Assembly (NCBI GenBank): GCA_900317055.1
Contig: ONFF01000002.1
Coordinates: forward strand, 150,224 to 214,223
Direction of reading: 5' to 3'
DNA length: 64,000 nucleotides
Origin: an uncultured Bacteroidales bacterium
GTDB taxonomy: Bacteria > Bacteroidota > Bacteroidia > Bacteroidales > F082
The position numbers were made by a program, and so were the translations under genes. Below the pieces are notes generated by a model that was not told the origin of the DNA, did no database searches, and saw nothing but the letters and a program-made list of their open reading frames with translations. Positions 4,112 through 63,977 of this stretch are shown piece by piece. Position 1 is the stretch's first letter, and the number at the start of each line of letters is the position of its first letter.

Positions 4112-4119
4112 ATTTTCTT

Positions 4120-4172
4120 AGTCACACAGATTTCACGGATTTCACAGATCTGTGTTATCTGTGTGACTTCTT
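4120..4172. repeat. solo palindrome of tcacacaga units
   Basis: A long imperfect inverted repeat: agtcacacagatttcacgg on the left mirrors atctgtgttatctgtgtgac on the right, with no ORF between. The units match in style the arms around the GxxExxY gene at 21450-21945, so this looks like an empty version of that element. Confidence 0.7.
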
Positions 4173-5839: not shown

Positions 5840-6417
5840 TATTGTTTTTCTTTTTATTGCGAAAACTTGCTAAAATCATTATTTGTTTGCGAAAAAGTGC
5901 GAAAACTATATCGTTTTTTCACAAAAAAAGACAAAAGTTCGTAAACTCACAGCGAAAAGAAGTTCAAACCAAATCATCTCACATTACTGTTCAAAATGCG
6001 AACTGGGGTTATATATTCTTCATTAAAGTTAACGAGGATACCCAACTTATAACCTGTGATGCCAAGGTAATTACGGACTTGGGCTTTGTGGGCATCAGTC
6101 AACTCTGAAACAGCTTTCAACTCAACGATAATCTTGTCATAGCATACGAAATCGGCAATATAAGAAGCATCCATCTTCTCACCTCGATAATACAACTCGT
6201 AGCGCTTTTCGCGTTCAAAAGCAATCTTTTGAACTTTTAGCTCTTTTTCCAACGCCTCCTAATAGACCCGCTCCAACAATCCTATCCCCAAACGCTTATG
6301 AACCTCAAATATGGCACCTACAATCTTATGAGACTCATTAGGGTAGACAAGATAATCCATATAGAAACACTATTTTTTCGTAGCTTTTCGCCGTTTTCGT
6401 CTATTTTCGCAATCTCA
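5840..6417. mobile_element. gcgaaaa-palindrome element carrying a broken GxxExxY gene
   Basis: The tviC-tviB gap is filled by arms made of gcgaaaa units: attgcgaaaacttgc and gtttgcgaaaaagtgcgaaa on the left (5858-5910), and ttcgccgttttcgtctattttcgcaat in reverse orientation on the right (6385-6413). The ORF lies between the inverted arms. The right arm directly abuts the tviC stop codon. Boundaries are judged by eye. Confidence 0.6.
5974..6360 (-). pseudogene. GxxExxY protein gene with in-frame TAG
   Basis: From ATG 6358-6360 the frame reads MDYLVYPNESHKIVGAIFEV, then GIGLLERVY, a TAG at 6259-6261, then EALEKEL and a normal family body (YIADFVCYDKIIVELKAV) to 5974. The stop falls where intact copies have Q or E (VYQEAL, VYEEAL), so it is a point nonsense mutation right after the signature. 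The GxxExxY family has a PDDEXK-like core (IVELKAV) and no settled function. An internal ATG two codons... downstream of the stop (MEKELKV region) could still give a 92-residue fragment lacking the signature. Confidence 0.75.
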
Positions 6418-7389: not shown

Positions 7390-7600
7390 TAACGTTTAAT
7401 TGAGAATTGACAATTGATAATTGATAGTTTGGAGTTGAGGTTTTAGAGTTTAGAGGCAGTTGTGAGTGTAGAGTTGTTAGTTGAGAGTAAATCCTTTTTA
7501 CGGCTTCGCCTTGTCAGTCACAGATTGTGGTGGCAAGGGGGGCTAAATTAGTTATGAACGGGACTTCACAACTTCTGATTGAAGCCTTCAGTTCGTATTT
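7390..7600. repeat. intergenic repeats upstream of tviC
   Basis: This 308 bp gap holds gaattgacaattgataattg, then gtttagaggcagttgtgagt, then cggcttcgccttgtcagtca. The second and third units recur at 8690-8860, 13000-13040 and 15340-15395. No ORF was seen. Confidence 0.6.
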
Positions 7601-8537: not shown

Positions 8538-9025
8538 AACTTTGTTTGATTTCTGTTCTACGCTATCATAATCTCGTCAATATCTCCACAATCTATAAAT
8601 TTGCAACGCTAACCCACAAACGAAAACCATCTTAACCTCACCTATCTGTGGTTCAAACTTCGAGACGCATTACACTCCGCCTTGTCAGTCATTTTCATAA
8701 GTTTAGAGTTTAGTGTTTAGAGGCAGTTGTGAGTGTAGAGTTGTTAGTTGAGAGTAGATCCATTTAACGGCTTCGCCTTGTCAGTCATTTTCATGAGTTG
8801 AGTGTTTAGAGTTTAGAGGCAGTTGTGAGTGTAGAGTTTAGAGTTGAAAGTGTAATTCTCTTTTCGTTTCTTTCGGGTTTTCCGATGTTTAAAACTACAA
8901 CGCTATCGAACTCAAATAGTTCAAGAACTCTTTCACGTTTGCAAAGGAATTAAGTAAAACGCAGGGTTAGTTGGTCATCAAAGCGATAATTAACGAATCA
9001 ATTAAATAGGCGATTAATTACCCGA
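8538..9025. repeat. 488 bp gap with repeated gtttagaggcagttgtgagt units
   Basis: Two long near-identical direct repeats lie at about 8695-8785 and 8796-8850: gtttagaggcagttgtgagt followed by gtagagttg and, after the first, cggcttcgccttgtcagtca. A third copy of the latter is at about 8675. Nothing coding was seen. The AT-rich remainder (8860-9025) shows no recognisable feature. Confidence 0.6.
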
Positions 9026-12962: not shown

Positions 12963-13042
12963 GTTGAGAATTGAGAATTGAGAATTTACAATTGATAGTT
13001 TAGTGTTTAGAGGCAGTGGATAGTGTAGAGTTGAGAGTTATT
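12963..13042. repeat. gagaattgagaattg and gtttagaggcagt repeats
   Basis: Tandem gagaattgagaattgagaa, then tttacaattgatag, then gtttagtgtttagaggcagt and gtagagttgagag. Same families as at 7390-7500 and 8690-8860. Confidence 0.6.
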
Positions 13043-15324: not shown

Positions 15325-15846
15325 TGAATTAGTTTAGAGTTGAGAGTTTAGAGTTGAGAGTCAGTTGTTAGTGTAGAGTTGAGAGTATAGAGTTATAAAG
15401 TAGAGCATTTTGGTATTATTGTTTGGCGTCAGAGGGTTGGTACGAATTAAGAAGGCCAGAAAGAAGTCGAGCGTCTTCTTCAATAAGAAGATCCATACTC
15501 ACGCGGTCGTCTGTTGTGATATAACCAAGATCCTCTGCTATCTCGAATTGAGAAGAGACTTCCATTAAAGAGCCATAGGCTATCTCTATGAAATGAGCCT
15601 TGTCTTTAACTGAAAAACGGTTTACGCCTTCGGCAATGTTTGAAGTTACGGAGACAGAAGCTCTTCTTAACTGGTCACACATTGCATAACGTTCCTCTAC
15701 CGGGAACTTCTTAAGAAGCTTGTACGTTCTCTTTACTACTTCCTTAGCTTTTTGATAAGCTATTAACTTACGATAACCAAATACTTCCATACTTTAAACT
15801 CTAAACTTTTTAACTACTCTAAACTCTACACTCTAAACTCTCAACT
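15325..15846. mobile_element. tttagagttgagag-palindrome element with four-helix-bundle gene
   Basis: Left arm 15330-15395: tttagagttgagagtttag, gttgagagtcagttgttag, gtgtagagttgagag. Right arm 15790-15846 is the reverse complement type: tttaaactctaaacttttt, ctctaaactctacactc, taaactctcaac. The arms are inverted around one small gene and together fill the space between gmd and fcl. The right arm touches the gmd stop codon. Confidence 0.65.
15416..15790 (-). CDS. four-helix-bundle (S23/IVS-type) protein
   Basis: A 124-residue protein with family hallmarks GYRKLIAYQKAKEVVK near the N-terminus, LRRASVSVTSNIAEGVNRFS in the middle (the SI-x-x-NIAEG motif) and FIEIAYGSLMEVSSQFEIA. Members are encoded in intervening sequences of 23S rRNA in some bacteria and scattered elsewhere; they form small pentamers and their role is unsettled. 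Here it lies between inverted repeat arms, separating gmd from fcl, and is transcribed with them. Confidence 0.85.
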   Translation of the reverse strand: MEVFGYRKLIAYQKAKEVVKRTYKLLKKFPVEERYAMCDQLRRASVSVTSNIAEGVNRFSVKDKAHFIEIAYGSLMEVSSQFEIAEDLGYITTDDRVSMDLLIEEDARLLSGLLNSYQPSDAKQ

Positions 15847-16923
15847 TTCTTCCAAATGAGCCTTCAAATAAAGCTTCTTCACAAACCTCATATCATGCTC
15901 AACCATGATTTTGACCAGTTCTTCGAACGAAGTCTTGCGCGGGTTCCAGCCGAGGAGCGTCTTGGCCTTGGTCGGGTCGCCAAGCAGCTGTTCCACCTCA
16001 GCGGGACGGAAGAAACGGGGATCGACCTCGACCAACGACTTGCCCGTAGCCACATCTATGCCCTTCTCATTCACACCCTCTCCTTCCCAACGCAACTCGA
16101 TACCGACATGCTTGAAAGCCAATGTGCAGAAATCGCGCACCGTATGGTACTCGCCCGTGGCGATGACGAAGTCCTCAGGCTTTTCCTGCTGCAGGATGAG
16201 CCACATGCATTCCACATAGTCCTTGGCATAGCCCCAGTCGCGGAGCGCATTAAGGTTGCCGAGATATAATTTGTCCTGATAACCCTGTTTGATGCGGGCG
16301 GCAGCGAGGGTAATCTTACGGGTAACGAAGGTCTCACCACGACGTTCGCTCTCATGGTTGAAGAGGATGCCGTTGACGGCGAACATGCCATAGCTCTCAC
16401 GATAGTTCTTCACAATCCAGAAGCCGTATTGCTTGGCCACGCCGTAGGGCGAACGCGGATAGAATGGTGTCGTCTCCTTTTGCGGCACTTCTTGCACCAG
16501 GCCAAAGAGTTCAGAAGTGGAGGCCTGATAAATCTTGCATTTCTTCTCTAGACCCAAGATGCGCACGGCCTCAAGGAGGCGCAATGTGCCTACGGCATCG
16601 GCTTCGGCAGTGTATTCGGGACAATCGAACGAAACCTTCACGTGGCTTTGGGCAGCCAGATTGTAGATTTCGTCGGGCTGCACCTTTTGGATGATGCGAA
16701 CCAAGGAAGACGAGTCGGTCATGTCGCCATAATGCAAGGTGAGGAGGCGTTTGTTCTTCATGTCGCGCACCCATTCGTCGAGATAGAGATGTTCGATGCG
16801 ACCCGTGTTGAACGAAGAAGAGCGACGAATGATGCCGTGCACTTCATAGCCTTTTTCCAAAAGGAACTCGGCAAGGAAAGAGCCGTCTTGGCCTGTGATA
16901 CCTGTGATTAAAGCGGTTTTCAT
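15841..16923 (-). CDS. gmd: GDP-mannose 4,6-dehydratase
   Basis: Makes GDP-4-keto-6-deoxy-mannose from GDP-mannose. The 360 residues carry [20 protein letters not shown] (NADP loop), [34 protein letters not shown] (catalytic Thr/Glu region), [17 protein letters not shown] (Tyr and Lys) and [17 protein letters not shown]. Length and motifs fit the family throughout. GDP-mannose would come from elsewhere. It is 6 bp downstream of the aminotransferase gene, so it belongs to the same transcription unit. Confidence 0.93.
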
Positions 16924-21413: not shown

Positions 21414-21439
21414 TGTTTTCTCACCGAAATGATAGTATT

Positions 21440-21946
21440 AGTTTCACACAGAAATCACAGAAATCACGGAAATTTGCTTGCCTGCGGCAAGCGGACGTTT
21501 GGGGTCAATTCACAATTCGCTTCATCGATGACAAGATGTCTTCGGTGTTGAAGTTTACAAGAAGACCTACTCTCTTATTCATCAGTCGGAGGTAAGTAAG
21601 CAATTGTTTATAAAACACATTCTTCATTTCCTCTACTGATTTAAGTTCGATTATGACCTGATTCTCTACGAGAAGATCAAGTCTGAGCTCTGTTTTCAAC
21701 ACAATGCCTTTGTATTTGATTGGCACTTGCACTTGACGCTCTACCGTCAGACCTCGTTTCTCTAATTCAAAACATAAAGCTTCCTCATAAACCGACTCCA
21801 GCAAACCCGGACCCAGTTCTTTGTACACATCATAGACAGCACCCCGAATCTCATATGTTATTTCGTTGTCCGTCATTTTGCGTCAGCAAAACTTTTCTGT
21901 GCTTTCCGTGTTTTCTGTGTGACTATTATATTTTCTGTGTGACTAA
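21440..21946. mobile_element. cacagaaat-palindrome element with GxxExxY gene
   Basis: Left arm 21449-21475: ttcacacagaaatcacagaa then atcacggaaa, followed by hairpin gcttgcctgcggcaagc. Right arm 21890-21945, reversed: ttttctgtgctttccgtgtt then ttctgtgtgac, with a partial second copy. The arms are inverted around the gene. The right arm begins at the SDR stop codon. The parallel cassette at 45457-45461 has only 5 bp here. Confidence 0.72.
21505..21876 (-). CDS. GxxExxY protein
   Basis: A 123-residue intact member. The N-terminal signature is ELGPGLLESVYEEAL (G-L-L-E-S-V-Y), followed by a PDDEXK-like core, LRLDLLVENQVIIELKSVEE (Asp ... Glu-x-Lys), then LLTYLRLMNKRVGLLVNFN. The core suggests a nuclease-like fold; the function of the family is not established. 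It is encoded between inverted repeat arms inside the acyl cassette and has no counterpart in cassette 2. Confidence 0.88.
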   Translation of the reverse strand: MTDNEITYEIRGAVYDVYKELGPGLLESVYEEALCFELEKRGLTVERQVQVPIKYKGIVLKTELRLDLLVENQVIIELKSVEEMKNVFYKQLLTYLRLMNKRVGLLVNFNTEDILSSMKRIVN

Positions 21947-50358: not shown

Positions 50359-50385
50359 ATTATTGTCGTTTTTTTTATCCTTTTT

Positions 50386-51055
50386 CGAACACGGATTTAT
50401 CAGATTGACACGGACACCATTTCGGGTCTAATACAAGGTCTTCGTTTGAAAAATTTTGGATTGACACGGATTTTTGCGACTCGTCGCAAAAACATCCGTG
50501 AAATCTGTCTCAATCCGTGTTCAATATTATTATTTATCCGTGTTTATTGATTATAATACTTTTCTTTCTATTTGTAGTTCATCATATTTTCCGAAATTAA
50601 TCAGAAAACCTAATTTGAATCCTGTTGCTTTTAAATAGTTGTATATTTGACTTCTATGTGAGTCATCTAATTCTTTTACAGCTTTTAATTCAATAATGAT
50701 TTTATCATAACACACAAAATCAGCAACATACTTTTTACCTAGTCTTATGCCATCATAGTAAACATCCAGTTCTTTTTCCTTTTCATAAGGAACATGTCGC
50801 TTGTCTAGCTCTATTTCCAATGCTTCTTGATACACTGCCTCAAGGAAACCAGATCCCAACAAATTATAAACTCTCATAGCAGCACCTCTTATAGCGTAGC
50901 TCTCATTTTGATAAATCAATGGCATTTAAATAGACTATTGATTGAAAACACTATTGAACTCTTTTTTTTCGAACACGGATTAAACAGATTTACACGGAAC
51001 TTTGCAACAAGTTGAGAAAAAATCCGAAAAAACCGTGCTATCCGTGTTCAAAATA
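50386..51055. mobile_element. cgaacacggatt-palindrome element with GxxExxY gene
   Basis: Two flanks start alike: cgaacacggatttatcagat (50387) and cgaacacggattaaacagat (50970), both followed by tacacgga or gacacgga. Each flank also ends with the mirror atccgtgttcaa, so each is itself a palindrome; the left one contains hairpin tttttgcgactcgtcgcaaa. The GxxExxY gene lies between the two palindromes. The element fills the rfbA-rfbB gap. Confidence 0.7.
50551..50925 (-). CDS. GxxExxY protein
   Basis: 124 residues, intact. Signature LLGSGFLEAVYQEALEIEL (G-F-L-E-A-V-Y), then KYVADFVCYDKIIIELKAVK (PDDEXK-like core) and IYNYLKATGFKLGFLINFG. More similar to the dead copy at 5974-6360 (same YIADFVCYDKIIVELKAV stretch) than to the copy at 21505-21876. 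Confidence 0.88.
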   Translation of the reverse strand: MPLIYQNESYAIRGAAMRVYNLLGSGFLEAVYQEALEIELDKRHVPYEKEKELDVYYDGIRLGKKYVADFVCYDKIIIELKAVKELDDSHRSQIYNYLKATGFKLGFLINFGKYDELQIERKVL

Positions 51056-51074
51056 ACACATGTCCTCTTAAATA

Positions 51075-52878: not shown

Positions 52879-53592
52879 GAGTGAGTCGTTTAGTGTCGGA
52901 GATAGCGGGTCTGGCGCCCGCTATGAGGGGTTTGGATGAGGGTGTGTCGTTTAGGGTGGGGTTTAGGGAAAGGGATACCCGAAGCCATCTCTCACGCTTA
53001 GGGTGTCTCCGTATCATAATACCCATTTTCATACGCCTCTTTTACAGATTGTATATACTCTTCATTCAATCCTATCGAATCTGCCAAGTCTTCCCATGTA
53101 GGATTGAAGTCGCTGATTAGCTTTTCTTTCCATTCCCTCCGCCATTTTTTCAATTGTTTTTCTCTGTGGATACCGTCAATAAGAAGATCATGGACTTCGT
53201 AATACACTAGTTTCTCTGTATTGTATCGGTCAGAAAAACCTGTATTGATACGGAGTTTATGTTCAGCCAACCTCCGTCTGAGGTTTCTGGTCACGCCTGT
53301 GTATAGGGTTGTGTTGTTTTTATTTGTGAGGATGTATACGATTCCTTGGAGAGGCATGAGGTATGAGTGTGTCGTTTAGTGTCGGAGATAGCGGGTCTGG
53401 CGCCCGCTATGAGGGGTTTGGATGAGGGTGTGTCGTTTAGGGTGGGGTTTAGGGAAAGGGATACCCGAAAGGGTGTGTCGTTTAGGGTGGGGTTTAGGGA
53501 AAGGGATACCCGAAAACAGCGCTTTATTTGAGTGACCCTAAGCGGGAGACCCTCATGGCGGGCTTGACCCGCCATCCCTCACGCTTAGGGCC
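52879..53592. mobile_element. REP-like hairpin repeats enclosing a GIY-YIG gene
   Basis: Repeat unit: cgtttagtgtcggagatagc, hairpin gatagcgggtctggcgcccg plus ctat, ggggtttggatgagggtg, cgtttagggtggggtttagg and gaaagggatacccgaa. One copy lies on the 3' side of the GIY-YIG gene (52888-52990) and another, with the second half doubled, on its 5' side (53367-53515). A second hairpin, tggcgggcttgacccgcca, closes the region at 53554-53572, inside the PIG-L gene end. Confidence 0.7.
52998..53357 (-). CDS. GIY-YIG nuclease, repeat-associated
   Basis: 119 residues: GIVYILTNKNNTTLYTGVTR (4-23; the paired I-V-Y and L-Y-T-G of the family), RRRLAEHK with catalytic Arg, and a later Glu (YYEVHD). Then IHREKQLKKWRREWKEKLI. 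The tail SIGLNEEYIQSVKEAYENGY is also found in the remnant at 58069-58188. Single-domain members could nick DNA at hairpins; target unknown. Its stop codon is inside the repeat (cgcttaggg). Confidence 0.87.
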   Translation of the reverse strand: MPLQGIVYILTNKNNTTLYTGVTRNLRRRLAEHKLRINTGFSDRYNTEKLVYYEVHDLLIDGIHREKQLKKWRREWKEKLISDFNPTWEDLADSIGLNEEYIQSVKEAYENGYYDTETP

Positions 53593-57787: not shown

Positions 57788-58068
57788 TTGGTTCGTGTCA
57801 GGGATAGCGGGTCAAGCCCGCTATGAGGGGTTTGGGGGTGAGATAGTCGTTTGGGTTGAGTTTTGGTTAAGTACTTGGAAATGGCTATCAGAGGTTGTCG
57901 GTTCGTGTCAGGGATAGCGGGTCAAGCCCGCTATGAGGGGTTTGGGGGAAAGACAGTCGTTTGGGTTGAGTTTTGGTTAAGTACTTGGAAATGGCTATCA
58001 GAAAAACAGGGCTTTATTGAGGAACCCAGAGCGGGAGACCCTCATGGCGGGCAAGGACCCGCCATCCC
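57788..58068. repeat. 110-bp tandem repeat with hairpins
   Basis: Two copies with a 110 bp period (gttcgtgtcagggatagcgg at 57791 and 57901). Each has hairpin atagcgggtcaagcccgcta plus t, then tttgggttgagttttggtta and gtacttggaaatggctatca. They are followed by acagggctttattgaggaac and hairpin tggcgggcaaggacccgcca (58045-58064). The same block recurs at 63694-63977. Confidence 0.75.
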
Positions 58069-60099: not shown

Positions 60100-60242
60100 T
60101 TTTAGTTGTTCAGTTATTCAGTTGTTCAGTTATTTGGTGGCTTCTGGCTTCTGGCCTCTGGCTATTGGCAACATCACGAAAAGTTTGTGAGTTTACATCT
60201 ATCGTGGAGCGGCCAATAGCCAGTAGCCAATGGCCAGTAGCC
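60100..60242. repeat. gttcagttatt repeats and second ggcttctgg palindrome
   Basis: First gttcagttattcagttgttc units (60108-60136), then ggcttctggcttctggcctc and tggctattgg, mirrored by ccaatagccagtagccaatg and gccagtagcc. About 50 bp in the centre, no ORF. Confidence 0.62.
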
Positions 60243-63693: not shown

Positions 63694-63977
63694 TAGTCGG
63701 TTCGTGTCAGGGATAGCGGGTCAAGCCCGCTATGAGGGGTTTGGGGGTGAGATAGTCGTTTGGGTTGAGTTTTGGTTAAGTACTTGGAAAAAGCTATCAG
63801 AGGTTGTCGGTTCGTGTCAGGGATAGCGGGTCAAGCCCGCTATGAGGGGTTTAGGGGTGAGATAGTCGTTTGGGTTGAGTTTAGGTTAAGTACTAGGAAA
63901 TGGCTATCAGAAAAACAGGGCTTTATTGATAAACCCAGAGCGGGAGACCCTCATGGCGGGCAAGGACCCGCCATCCC
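63694..63977. repeat. second 110-bp tandem repeat block
   Basis: gttcgtgtcagggatagcgg at 63700 and 63810 (110 bp period), hairpins atagcgggtcaagcccgcta at 63713 and 63823, then acagggctttattgataaac and hairpin tggcgggcaaggacccgcca. Nearly identical to 57788-58068. It occupies the whole gap from galE to the window end, and no other ORF was seen. Confidence 0.75.

Follow-up and report, generated by a model that had tools for sequence, protein, structure and literature searches.

Four small elements in a 64,000-nucleotide stretch of an uncultured Bacteroidales genome (the whole stretch analysed, referred to as the window) led to the description of a class of small, apparently mobile elements comprising two families, which carry unrelated proteins on one common plan. 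We consider it somewhat probable that in this class the encoded protein reads the repeat words of its own element and aids their copying. The mobility of the class is well supported by sequence comparison, because mirrored repeats border most of the homologous genes examined and none of the junctions compared is occupied in all relatives. The elements and their reading frames are as follows.

5840-6417, minus strand: decayed GxxExxY element with GCGAAAA words; ORF 5974-6360 with an in-frame TAG
15325-15850, minus strand: four-helix-bundle (PF05635) element between gmd and fcl, with heptamer arms
15416-15790, minus strand: ORF of the 15325 element, 124 aa, PF05635/TIGR02436 four-helix bundle, above curated cut-offs
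21440-21946, minus strand: GxxExxY element between the SDR and AMP-ligase genes, with CACAGAAAT 9-mer arms
21505-21876, minus strand: ORF of the 21440 element, 123 aa, PF13366/TIGR04256 GxxExxY, above curated cut-offs
50381-51056, minus strand: GxxExxY element between rfbA and rfbB, with CACGGATT arms on both sides
50551-50925, minus strand: ORF of that element (50386-51055), 124 aa, PF13366/TIGR04256 GxxExxY, above curated cut-offs

A preliminary description of this DNA had assigned GxxExxY proteins to three elements and a four-helix-bundle protein to one, and this was confirmed by the profiles: PF13366 was found in three ORFs (one of them broken) and PF05635 in one. In the broken ORF, the 92-aa remainder (5974-6252) still matched PF13366/TIGR04256. 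The mirrored-arm plan proposed for all four elements could be recovered for three of them. A repeat search of the window gave arms of 66 nt each, 74% complementary, for the 15325 element (15331-15396 and 15781-15846), and of 42 nt each, 76% complementary, for the 21440 element (21431-21472 and 21894-21935). The stop codon of gmd (15841-15843) lies inside an arm, so that in the host genome (G000) gmd ends within the first repeat of the 15325 element. In the 50381-51056 element, CACGGATT-type words and hairpins were located on either side of the ORF, each side being partly self-complementary. The inverted-match scores of these three elements (35.5, 27.5 and 27.0 for 15325, 21440 and 50386, respectively) exceeded the control maximum of 21.0, and none of 153 control ORFs scored as high. 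For the 5840-6417 element the plan did not hold: its best inverted-match score was 19.0, equalled by 2% of the controls and obtained outside the GCGAAAA arrays, and its near-ORF score was 15.5. GCGAAAA is clustered at 5859-6410, where seven copies lie, including one within the ORF, but its total over the window was not above chance (16 against 13.3 expected). This element is eroded, with weak arms and the in-frame TAG. The words differ from element to element, as stated earlier, and the two families, while sharing the plan, follow a different repeat grammar.

The host genome (3.5 Mb) contains 11 such genes, with seven PF13366 and four PF05635 matches. By eye, most of the 11 are flanked by mirrored arrays of short words, and the word differs each time (examples are GCAGAATTC, CACAGAAAT, CACGGATTT, ACAAAACCG, TTAGCTG, TTTAGAG/TTGAGAG and GCTGAAT). 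Compared with mispaired flanks, eight of the 11 reached p < 0.05, the exceptions being L004 (0.066), L005 (0.074) and L011 (0.64). Four of the 11 genes lie inside this polysaccharide-gene window, which is 1.8% of the genome, and several element genes on one contig were also seen in some other genomes. Among the neighbouring genes, gmd, rfbA, rfbB and SDR passed the curated cut-offs under the names given to them earlier, and fcl fell just under (481.8 bits against 500). For the genes resembling tviB, tviC and the AMP-ligase, scores stayed below the cut-offs of the models they matched, though consistently with the earlier names. The window also holds repeats of other kinds: near-alike units of 110 bp, long and not of the short-word type, repeated in tandem about twice at 57790-58002 and again at 63696-63911, and an exact tandem duplication of 45 bp at 53425-53515.

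Among genomes sampled from the host's family, all 60 examined for PF05635 contained it, and 35 of 41 contained PF13366. From loci retrieved for part of the listed matches, 184 profile matches were obtained; after removal of duplicates and of matches that covered less than 80% of the profile or lay too close to a contig end, 156 elements remained (83 GxxExxY and 73 four-helix), L005 with its stop being left out. Each upstream flank was scored against its own downstream flank, with 3864 mismatched pairs as the null. The 95% point of this null was reached by 63 of 83 GxxExxY and 56 of 73 four-helix elements, and the 99% point by 34 and 33, respectively. A GTDB contig scan with the GxxExxY alignment extended the comparison to the best 80 of at least 578 relatives (at least 592 candidate stretches listed), among which were Acidobacteria, Armatimonadetes, Chloroflexi, Planctomycetes, Nitrospinota, Proteobacteria, Ignavibacteria and the archaeon Methanothrix. 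For the 75 usable of these 80, the null 95% point was exceeded in 34 of the 49 from Bacteroidota and in 15 of the 26 from other groups, and the 99% point in 22 and 12. PF05635 was found in 18 of the 24 genomes behind 24 loci picked from other phyla; 30 four-helix loci from other phyla gave 27 with 28 usable elements, 22 of which exceeded the 95% point and 20 the 99% point.

With a fixed arm score of at least 18, 57/83 GxxExxY and 50/73 four-helix elements were positive in the host family, and 50/75 and 22/28 in the wider GxxExxY (GTDB scan) and four-helix (other phyla) sets, against 4/153 controls, which are ORFs of at least 150 aa and hence not small genes. In a smaller control of 37 genes the 95% point of the score was 15 and the maximum 16. 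Altogether 178 of 257 distinct copies scored 18 or higher, two elements common to both GxxExxY sets being counted once. The inverted repeats expected earlier in the flanks of homologous genes are thus present in the majority of cases tested. Scores below 18 were obtained for 26/83 and 25/75 GxxExxY and for 23/73 and 6/28 four-helix elements, so that about 30% are without demonstrated arms; some of these low-scoring elements have an alternative layout with hairpins mostly upstream (one GxxExxY clade). Hairpins chiefly upstream were seen in a GxxExxY sub-clade formed by L073, L074, L077, L078 and L089, with an additional outer GGCTAAAT/ATTTAGCC pair in L074 and L089. When hairpins were sought within single flanks, the excess was no more than moderate, with one or other flank exceeding the control 95% point in 24/83 and 15/75 GxxExxY and in 17/73 and 1/28 four-helix elements.

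Alignment of relatives at unrelated sites gave no exact element ends, which are not definable by this approach because the arms vary. Of 78 TRF array pairs in loci fetched around these two protein families, 11 enclosed neither family; eight of these intervals were read, four being without an ORF above 45 aa, three containing host genes and one having ambiguous content. At one locus, L119 (G055:C53), two four-helix genes with an identical score are separated by 805 bp and may have arisen by a recent duplication of the element in tandem.

The repeat grammar was determined for arms scoring at least 16, with 60-base segments about 0.9 kb upstream as control. For four-helix elements the best lag was 7 or 8 in 52 of 56 cases in the host family and in 23 of 24 from other phyla, while GxxExxY elements had their best lag at 8-10 (50/63 and 43/59). 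The control segments were flat, with no preferred period. Periodicity was weaker in GxxExxY, with a mean excess at the best lag of 0.03-0.05 versus 0.19-0.28 for four-helix. Four-helix arms consist mostly of tandem 7-mers with some 8-mers, and GxxExxY arms mostly of units of 8-10, among which the k-mers CGCAAA, CGCAGA and CACAGA stand out. Forty-six clean heptamer arrays shared a weak consensus, YNNKRRY, with an information of 3.11, compared to a mean of 2.67 (sd 0.13, maximum 3.01) in 60 permuted sets. The periods by family and this weak consensus indicate, at the level of sequence, that the length of the word is tied to the protein family and that the word itself is free within limits.

Chance repeats were rejected by the mispaired-arm, control-gene and period tests. 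The arms could in principle be slippage products, simple tandem repeats that arose by chance beside small genes, and their short units and variable copy number are what this would give. However, own-pair arms scored above mispaired ones and above those of the control genes, which have at least 150 aa, the word period tracks the protein family across phyla, and the information of YNNKRRY lies above the null maximum, so that we regard slippage as very improbable.

Because the grammar differs between the families (7/8-mers for four-helix, 8-10-mers for GxxExxY), the earlier suggestion that all four elements form one class stands in the sense of a shared architecture and not of a demonstrated common descent. 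Two separate families that converged on one look and work by different mechanisms are a serious alternative, although one that we place below even likelihood. Apart from word length, the families differ in strand symmetry, likeness between arms being found on the same strand only for four-helix and on both strands for GxxExxY, and their proteins are of unrelated fold. Against convergence, size, mirrored plan and the gene-junction niche are all the same, and there is a junction at which some congeners have sequence of the GxxExxY type while another has heptamers of the four-helix type (see below).

The words tend to be inherited with the protein, as judged from sequence similarity. In elements with an arm score of at least 18, protein identity correlated with arm similarity for GxxExxY (Mantel rho 0.359, p 0.001, n=57), and there was a weak signal for four-helix (rho 0.125, p 0.017, n=50). 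In four pairs (L138/L144, L086/L126, L090/L132 and L151/L157) the proteins are 78-82% identical, the arms are shared and both outer flanks are unrelated, which is expected if gene and arms move together. Exceptions with dissimilar arms are L079/L089 (78% identical) and L019/L104 (69%). The arms of L007/L101 are only partly similar at 95% protein identity, and L077/L078, with proteins 93% identical and unrelated flanks, are without strong mirrored arms.

Comparison of gene junctions between related genomes gave direct cases of presence and absence. In the sister species G028, whose fcl is 94% identical to that of the host, gmd and fcl are separated by a gap of a few bases with no element, at the place of the 15325 element in the host, an empty junction in keeping with the view that this pair is normally adjacent. 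A different four-helix element with TTGGCTG words is located in G028 on the opposite side of fcl. The same view on rfbA-rfbB was correct for G028 and G051, in which the two genes are at most about 50 bases apart with no element between them, and does not apply to G014 and G041, where another gene follows rfbA. The third junction compared precedes a gene which we take, from its sequence, to be fucP-like, and it differs in all four congeners read. In the host and G028 it contains related GxxExxY elements with proteins 95% identical, accompanied in G028 by two extra ORF-less hairpins in tandem; in G014 there is a hairpin without ORF whose words are of the CACGGATT type, and in G041 four GTAAAC-type heptamers, the vocabulary of the nearby four-helix element L104, lie directly between the two genes. 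Elements are thus not fixed in relatives at the gmd-fcl, rfbA-rfbB and fucP-like junctions. No target-site duplication or transposition intermediate was seen; at these three junctions the flanks of empty and filled sites are too diverged to show a duplication. In G041, mirrored TTTAGAG/TTGAGAG-type arrays (L213:1914-1944 and 2855-2888) enclose the whole fucP-like host gene, the first of them apparently lying within the upstream gene.

Arrays and hairpins of the same kinds also occur without an ORF. In the window these are, without assigned strand:

355-416: ORF-less hairpin of GGTTCAA / TTGAAAC heptamers, fold z -4.0
4119-4170: ORF-less hairpin of CACAGATTT vocabulary, fold z -7.7
7397-7488: solo array without ORF, resembling the arm of the 15325 element (TTTAGAG/TTGAGAG)
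8696-8757: solo array of the 15325-arm type, query of the genome BLAST
8792-8851: solo array of the 15325-arm type, in tandem with the 8696-8757 array as a 96-bp unit
12964-13041: solo array of the 15325-arm type, from repeat search and BLAST
60104-60242: TGGCTTC/GCCAATA heptamers forming a hairpin without ORF, loop about 45 nt; z -8.5 for the fold of 60136-60242

BLAST with the 15325-type arm gave 48 matches in the host genome (E ≤1), 17 of them with E < 1e-7, in a count that includes the query, the own arm of the ORF element and several matches at one place; only one ORF copy with these words is present. Thirty of the 48 were read, six of which lie inside ORFs according to simple-script calls, and short matches to heptamer runs may be due to chance. 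At the 23 solo places read outside ORFs, the inverted-partner score was 7-12 versus 23 for the ORF element, so the solo arms of this family are single arrays and not hairpins, since there is no inverted partner nearby. The L001-type arm had 25 matches in the genome (E ≤0.01, self included). An ORF-less array of units of about 50 bp at L010:1036-1215 is built of the words of L001, another element of the same genome.

Hairpin sequence of the L007 type was found at five other places in G000 and two others in G028, both of which have the L007 protein, and at one place in G051, where the protein search gave no match. None was found in G014 and G041, whose best L007 homologues are 36-37% identical. 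Of these places, G000:C24, G051:C9 and the tandem pair of hairpins next to the element of G028 were read; the others are matches 26-65 bases long. On the basis of five related genomes, this distribution is compatible with a spread that would depend on the protein.

Orientation was analysed for elements with an arm score of at least 16 and both neighbours within 900 bp (56 GxxExxY and 49 four-helix). Of these, 41 and 40, respectively, lie between two co-directional genes, and 15 and nine between genes of opposite direction. Within co-directional pairs the ORF followed the direction of the operon in 37/41 GxxExxY and 40/40 four-helix cases (77/81 together), compared with a baseline of 81/108 for same-strand neighbours in these loci. 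The predicted RNA folds were more stable than shuffled sequences for the 15325 (z -4.7), 21440 (z -6.4) and 50386 (z -6.9, 20 shuffles) elements and likewise for three ORF-less hairpins of the window; for the 5840-6417 element, the upstream stretch folded no better than shuffles (z +0.35). Co-orientation and folds fit a dependence on read-through transcription and are not by themselves proof of movement at the RNA level.

A location between operon genes, together with stable predicted RNA hairpins, is also what one would see if nothing moved, that is, if these were intercistronic regulatory or mRNA-stabilising hairpins next to ordinary small genes. This we find improbable in view of the presence and absence at the gmd-fcl, rfbA-rfbB and fucP-like junctions, the dispersal of ORF-less copies and the unrelated surroundings in which similar proteins recur together with their words.

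The encoded proteins appear to be maintained under strong purifying selection, because dN/dS in 91 close, partly overlapping pairs was low (median 0.060, maximum 0.160), as a rough estimate, dS being set to 3 in cases of saturation at synonymous sites. The GxxExxY alignment contains the invariant residues G22, G24, E27, Y30, D67, E77, K79, Q91 and Y95, among others; E27, D67, E77, K79, Q91 and Y95 were read by us as a presumable PD-(D/E)XK site with QxxxY. A sequence search of the PDB found no solved relative. With the AlphaFold2 model (pLDDT 96.4), the closest PDB structures in Foldseek were SSO0001 (which we take to be a Cas4), lambda exonuclease and LHK-Exo, all of them remote, with two hits at E ≤0.001. 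GxxExxY is thus predicted to fold like Cas4 and lambda exonuclease and can be considered a putative nuclease; it has the E, D, ExK, QxxxY and core fold of that branch, the matches being remote and the fold predicted, but it differs from these enzymes in its length of only about 123 aa and its position inside its own repeat arms. No transposase family was matched by the four element ORFs in Pfam and NCBIfam.

The four-helix alignment matched PDB entries 2gsc and 2rld. According to PMC4990558, S23p of Xanthomonas is a homopentamer of four-helix bundles, and PF05635 is described as related to Avd in PMC10053308. The 15416-15790 protein scored 29.3 bits with the Avd equivalog NF033474 (cut-off 80) and 27.8 with bAvd (cut-off 40), under the cut-offs of both models, a distant similarity that suggests a remote relative of Avd and bAvd.

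The nearest known counterpart of the four-helix elements is the intervening sequence (IVS) of 23S rRNA, in which a terminal inverted repeat encloses a PF05635-type ORF as its loop, with tandem heptamers ahead of the ORF. For Coxiella, a 28-bp terminal stem, excision by RNase III and tandem GACAGAT heptamers before the S23p ORF have been described (PMC4990558). The 15325 element likewise has a PF05635 ORF and mirrored ends that can form a stem, while the three GxxExxY elements are without PF05635. It is not an rRNA IVS, because it is located outside rRNA, between the protein genes gmd and fcl; in a crude test with 11 short 23S words, none of 369 element loci contained more than one of them. Further differences are that each element here has its own heptamer and that related ORF-less arrays are dispersed. 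By hand, GACAGAT was found incompatible with YNNKRRY in every rotation and on either strand. By analogy, the four-helix family looks like the 23S rRNA IVS living outside rRNA, and the Coxiella rRNA element, since its anatomy is the same, may belong to this class and have come to lie in rRNA by insertion.

This likeness raises the explanation that the elements act at the RNA level, with arms that pair in the transcript, the ORF in the loop as in the IVS, and spread by reverse transcription of the RNA; the enzyme would belong to the host or be otherwise resident, and the four-helix protein would be an Avd-like helper. The 77/81 co-orientation with the operon, transcript folds of z -4.7 to -6.9, the distant relation of the four-helix protein to Avd and bAvd, and the excised Coxiella element with its stem, heptamers and same kind of ORF all agree with it. 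The predicted fold of GxxExxY, however, is of DNase type, co-orientation is equally expected if the ORF just needs read-through from the operon, and the ORF-less hairpins could act as DNA just as well. We therefore consider an RNA-level route unlikely, though clearly ahead of immobile hairpins or slippage.

For the class as a whole, the proposed protein-aided copying of arrays finds a parallel in REPIN-RAYT systems, in which intergenic REP doublets occur with a matching RAYT that has been proposed to aid REPIN copying (PMC3116915). Shared features are intergenic repeats and hairpins, and repeat classes matched to a resident protein. The matching of a repeat class to a specific protein was seen here in the Mantel tests, with exceptions, and weakly in the L007 family in five genomes. 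In REPIN-RAYT systems, ORF-less copies outnumber the protein gene; here the arm sequences gave many matches, and some of those read are hairpins, yet the 15325-family solo arms read are unpaired. The elements differ in their tandem word arrays and in the occurrence of gene and arms together at different sites, and they are not RAYT systems because the partner protein is not a Y1/HUH transposase. A resident RAYT as the mover was also considered: PF01797 (Y1 transposase, RAYT family) had at least one match in four of five congeners, where it could serve, but none in G014 (99% complete), which nevertheless has elements and a solo hairpin. A population structure like that of REPIN/RAYT without an HUH transposase is the best reading of the sequences.

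Other known repeats resemble the elements in part. With MITEs and insertion sequences they share terminal inverted repeats and presence or absence at sites, but their ends are variable arrays instead of fixed termini, and no target duplication was seen in the diverged flanks. TAACTGA heptamer arrays are reported from Beggiatoaceae, cyanobacteria and Bacteroidetes as mostly intergenic direct repeats whose mechanism is not known (PMC4679880); they are likewise mostly intergenic tandem heptamers, and TAACTGA when rotated fits YNNKRRY by hand, but they are described as direct repeats. Searches of that text found no mention of 23S, S23, four helix or intervening. In open-licence PMC literature, preprints excluded, no link of PF13366 or PF05635 outside rRNA to mirrored arrays was found, and the mirrored-array design around a small gene was found described only for rRNA-gene inserts. 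The nuclease (GxxExxY) half could be categorically new.

In the mechanism we propose, each protein would recognise the words of its own element, most probably once the arms have formed a hairpin as single-stranded DNA or within the operon transcript, and would help this array to be copied to new junctions, either alone or together with the gene, in a division of labour like that of RAYT and REPIN. The working part of GxxExxY would be a minimal nuclease of the Cas4/lambda-exonuclease type, and the four-helix protein would be a nucleic-acid-binding ring with subunits contacting successive 7-nt units. More tentatively, and with somewhat less than even confidence, these elements could represent a pan-prokaryotic class without a conventional transposase, in which a minimal Cas4-like nuclease or an Avd-like ring reads a word that is specific to the protein and of fixed period, and drives the copying of the mirrored arrays, gene included or not, into operon junctions; this would also explain many so far unexplained heptamer and octamer arrays of bacterial genomes, and rRNA IVSs would be members that landed in rRNA.

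PF05635 and PF13366, which are widespread in the sampled genomes of the host's family without an assigned role, would gain a context and a testable function by these results. The origin of rRNA IVSs, the role of S23p and the nature of dispersed heptamer arrays would become directly testable. If a nuclease or a ring protein drives the copying, this would be a route of transposition without DDE, HUH or serine enzymes.
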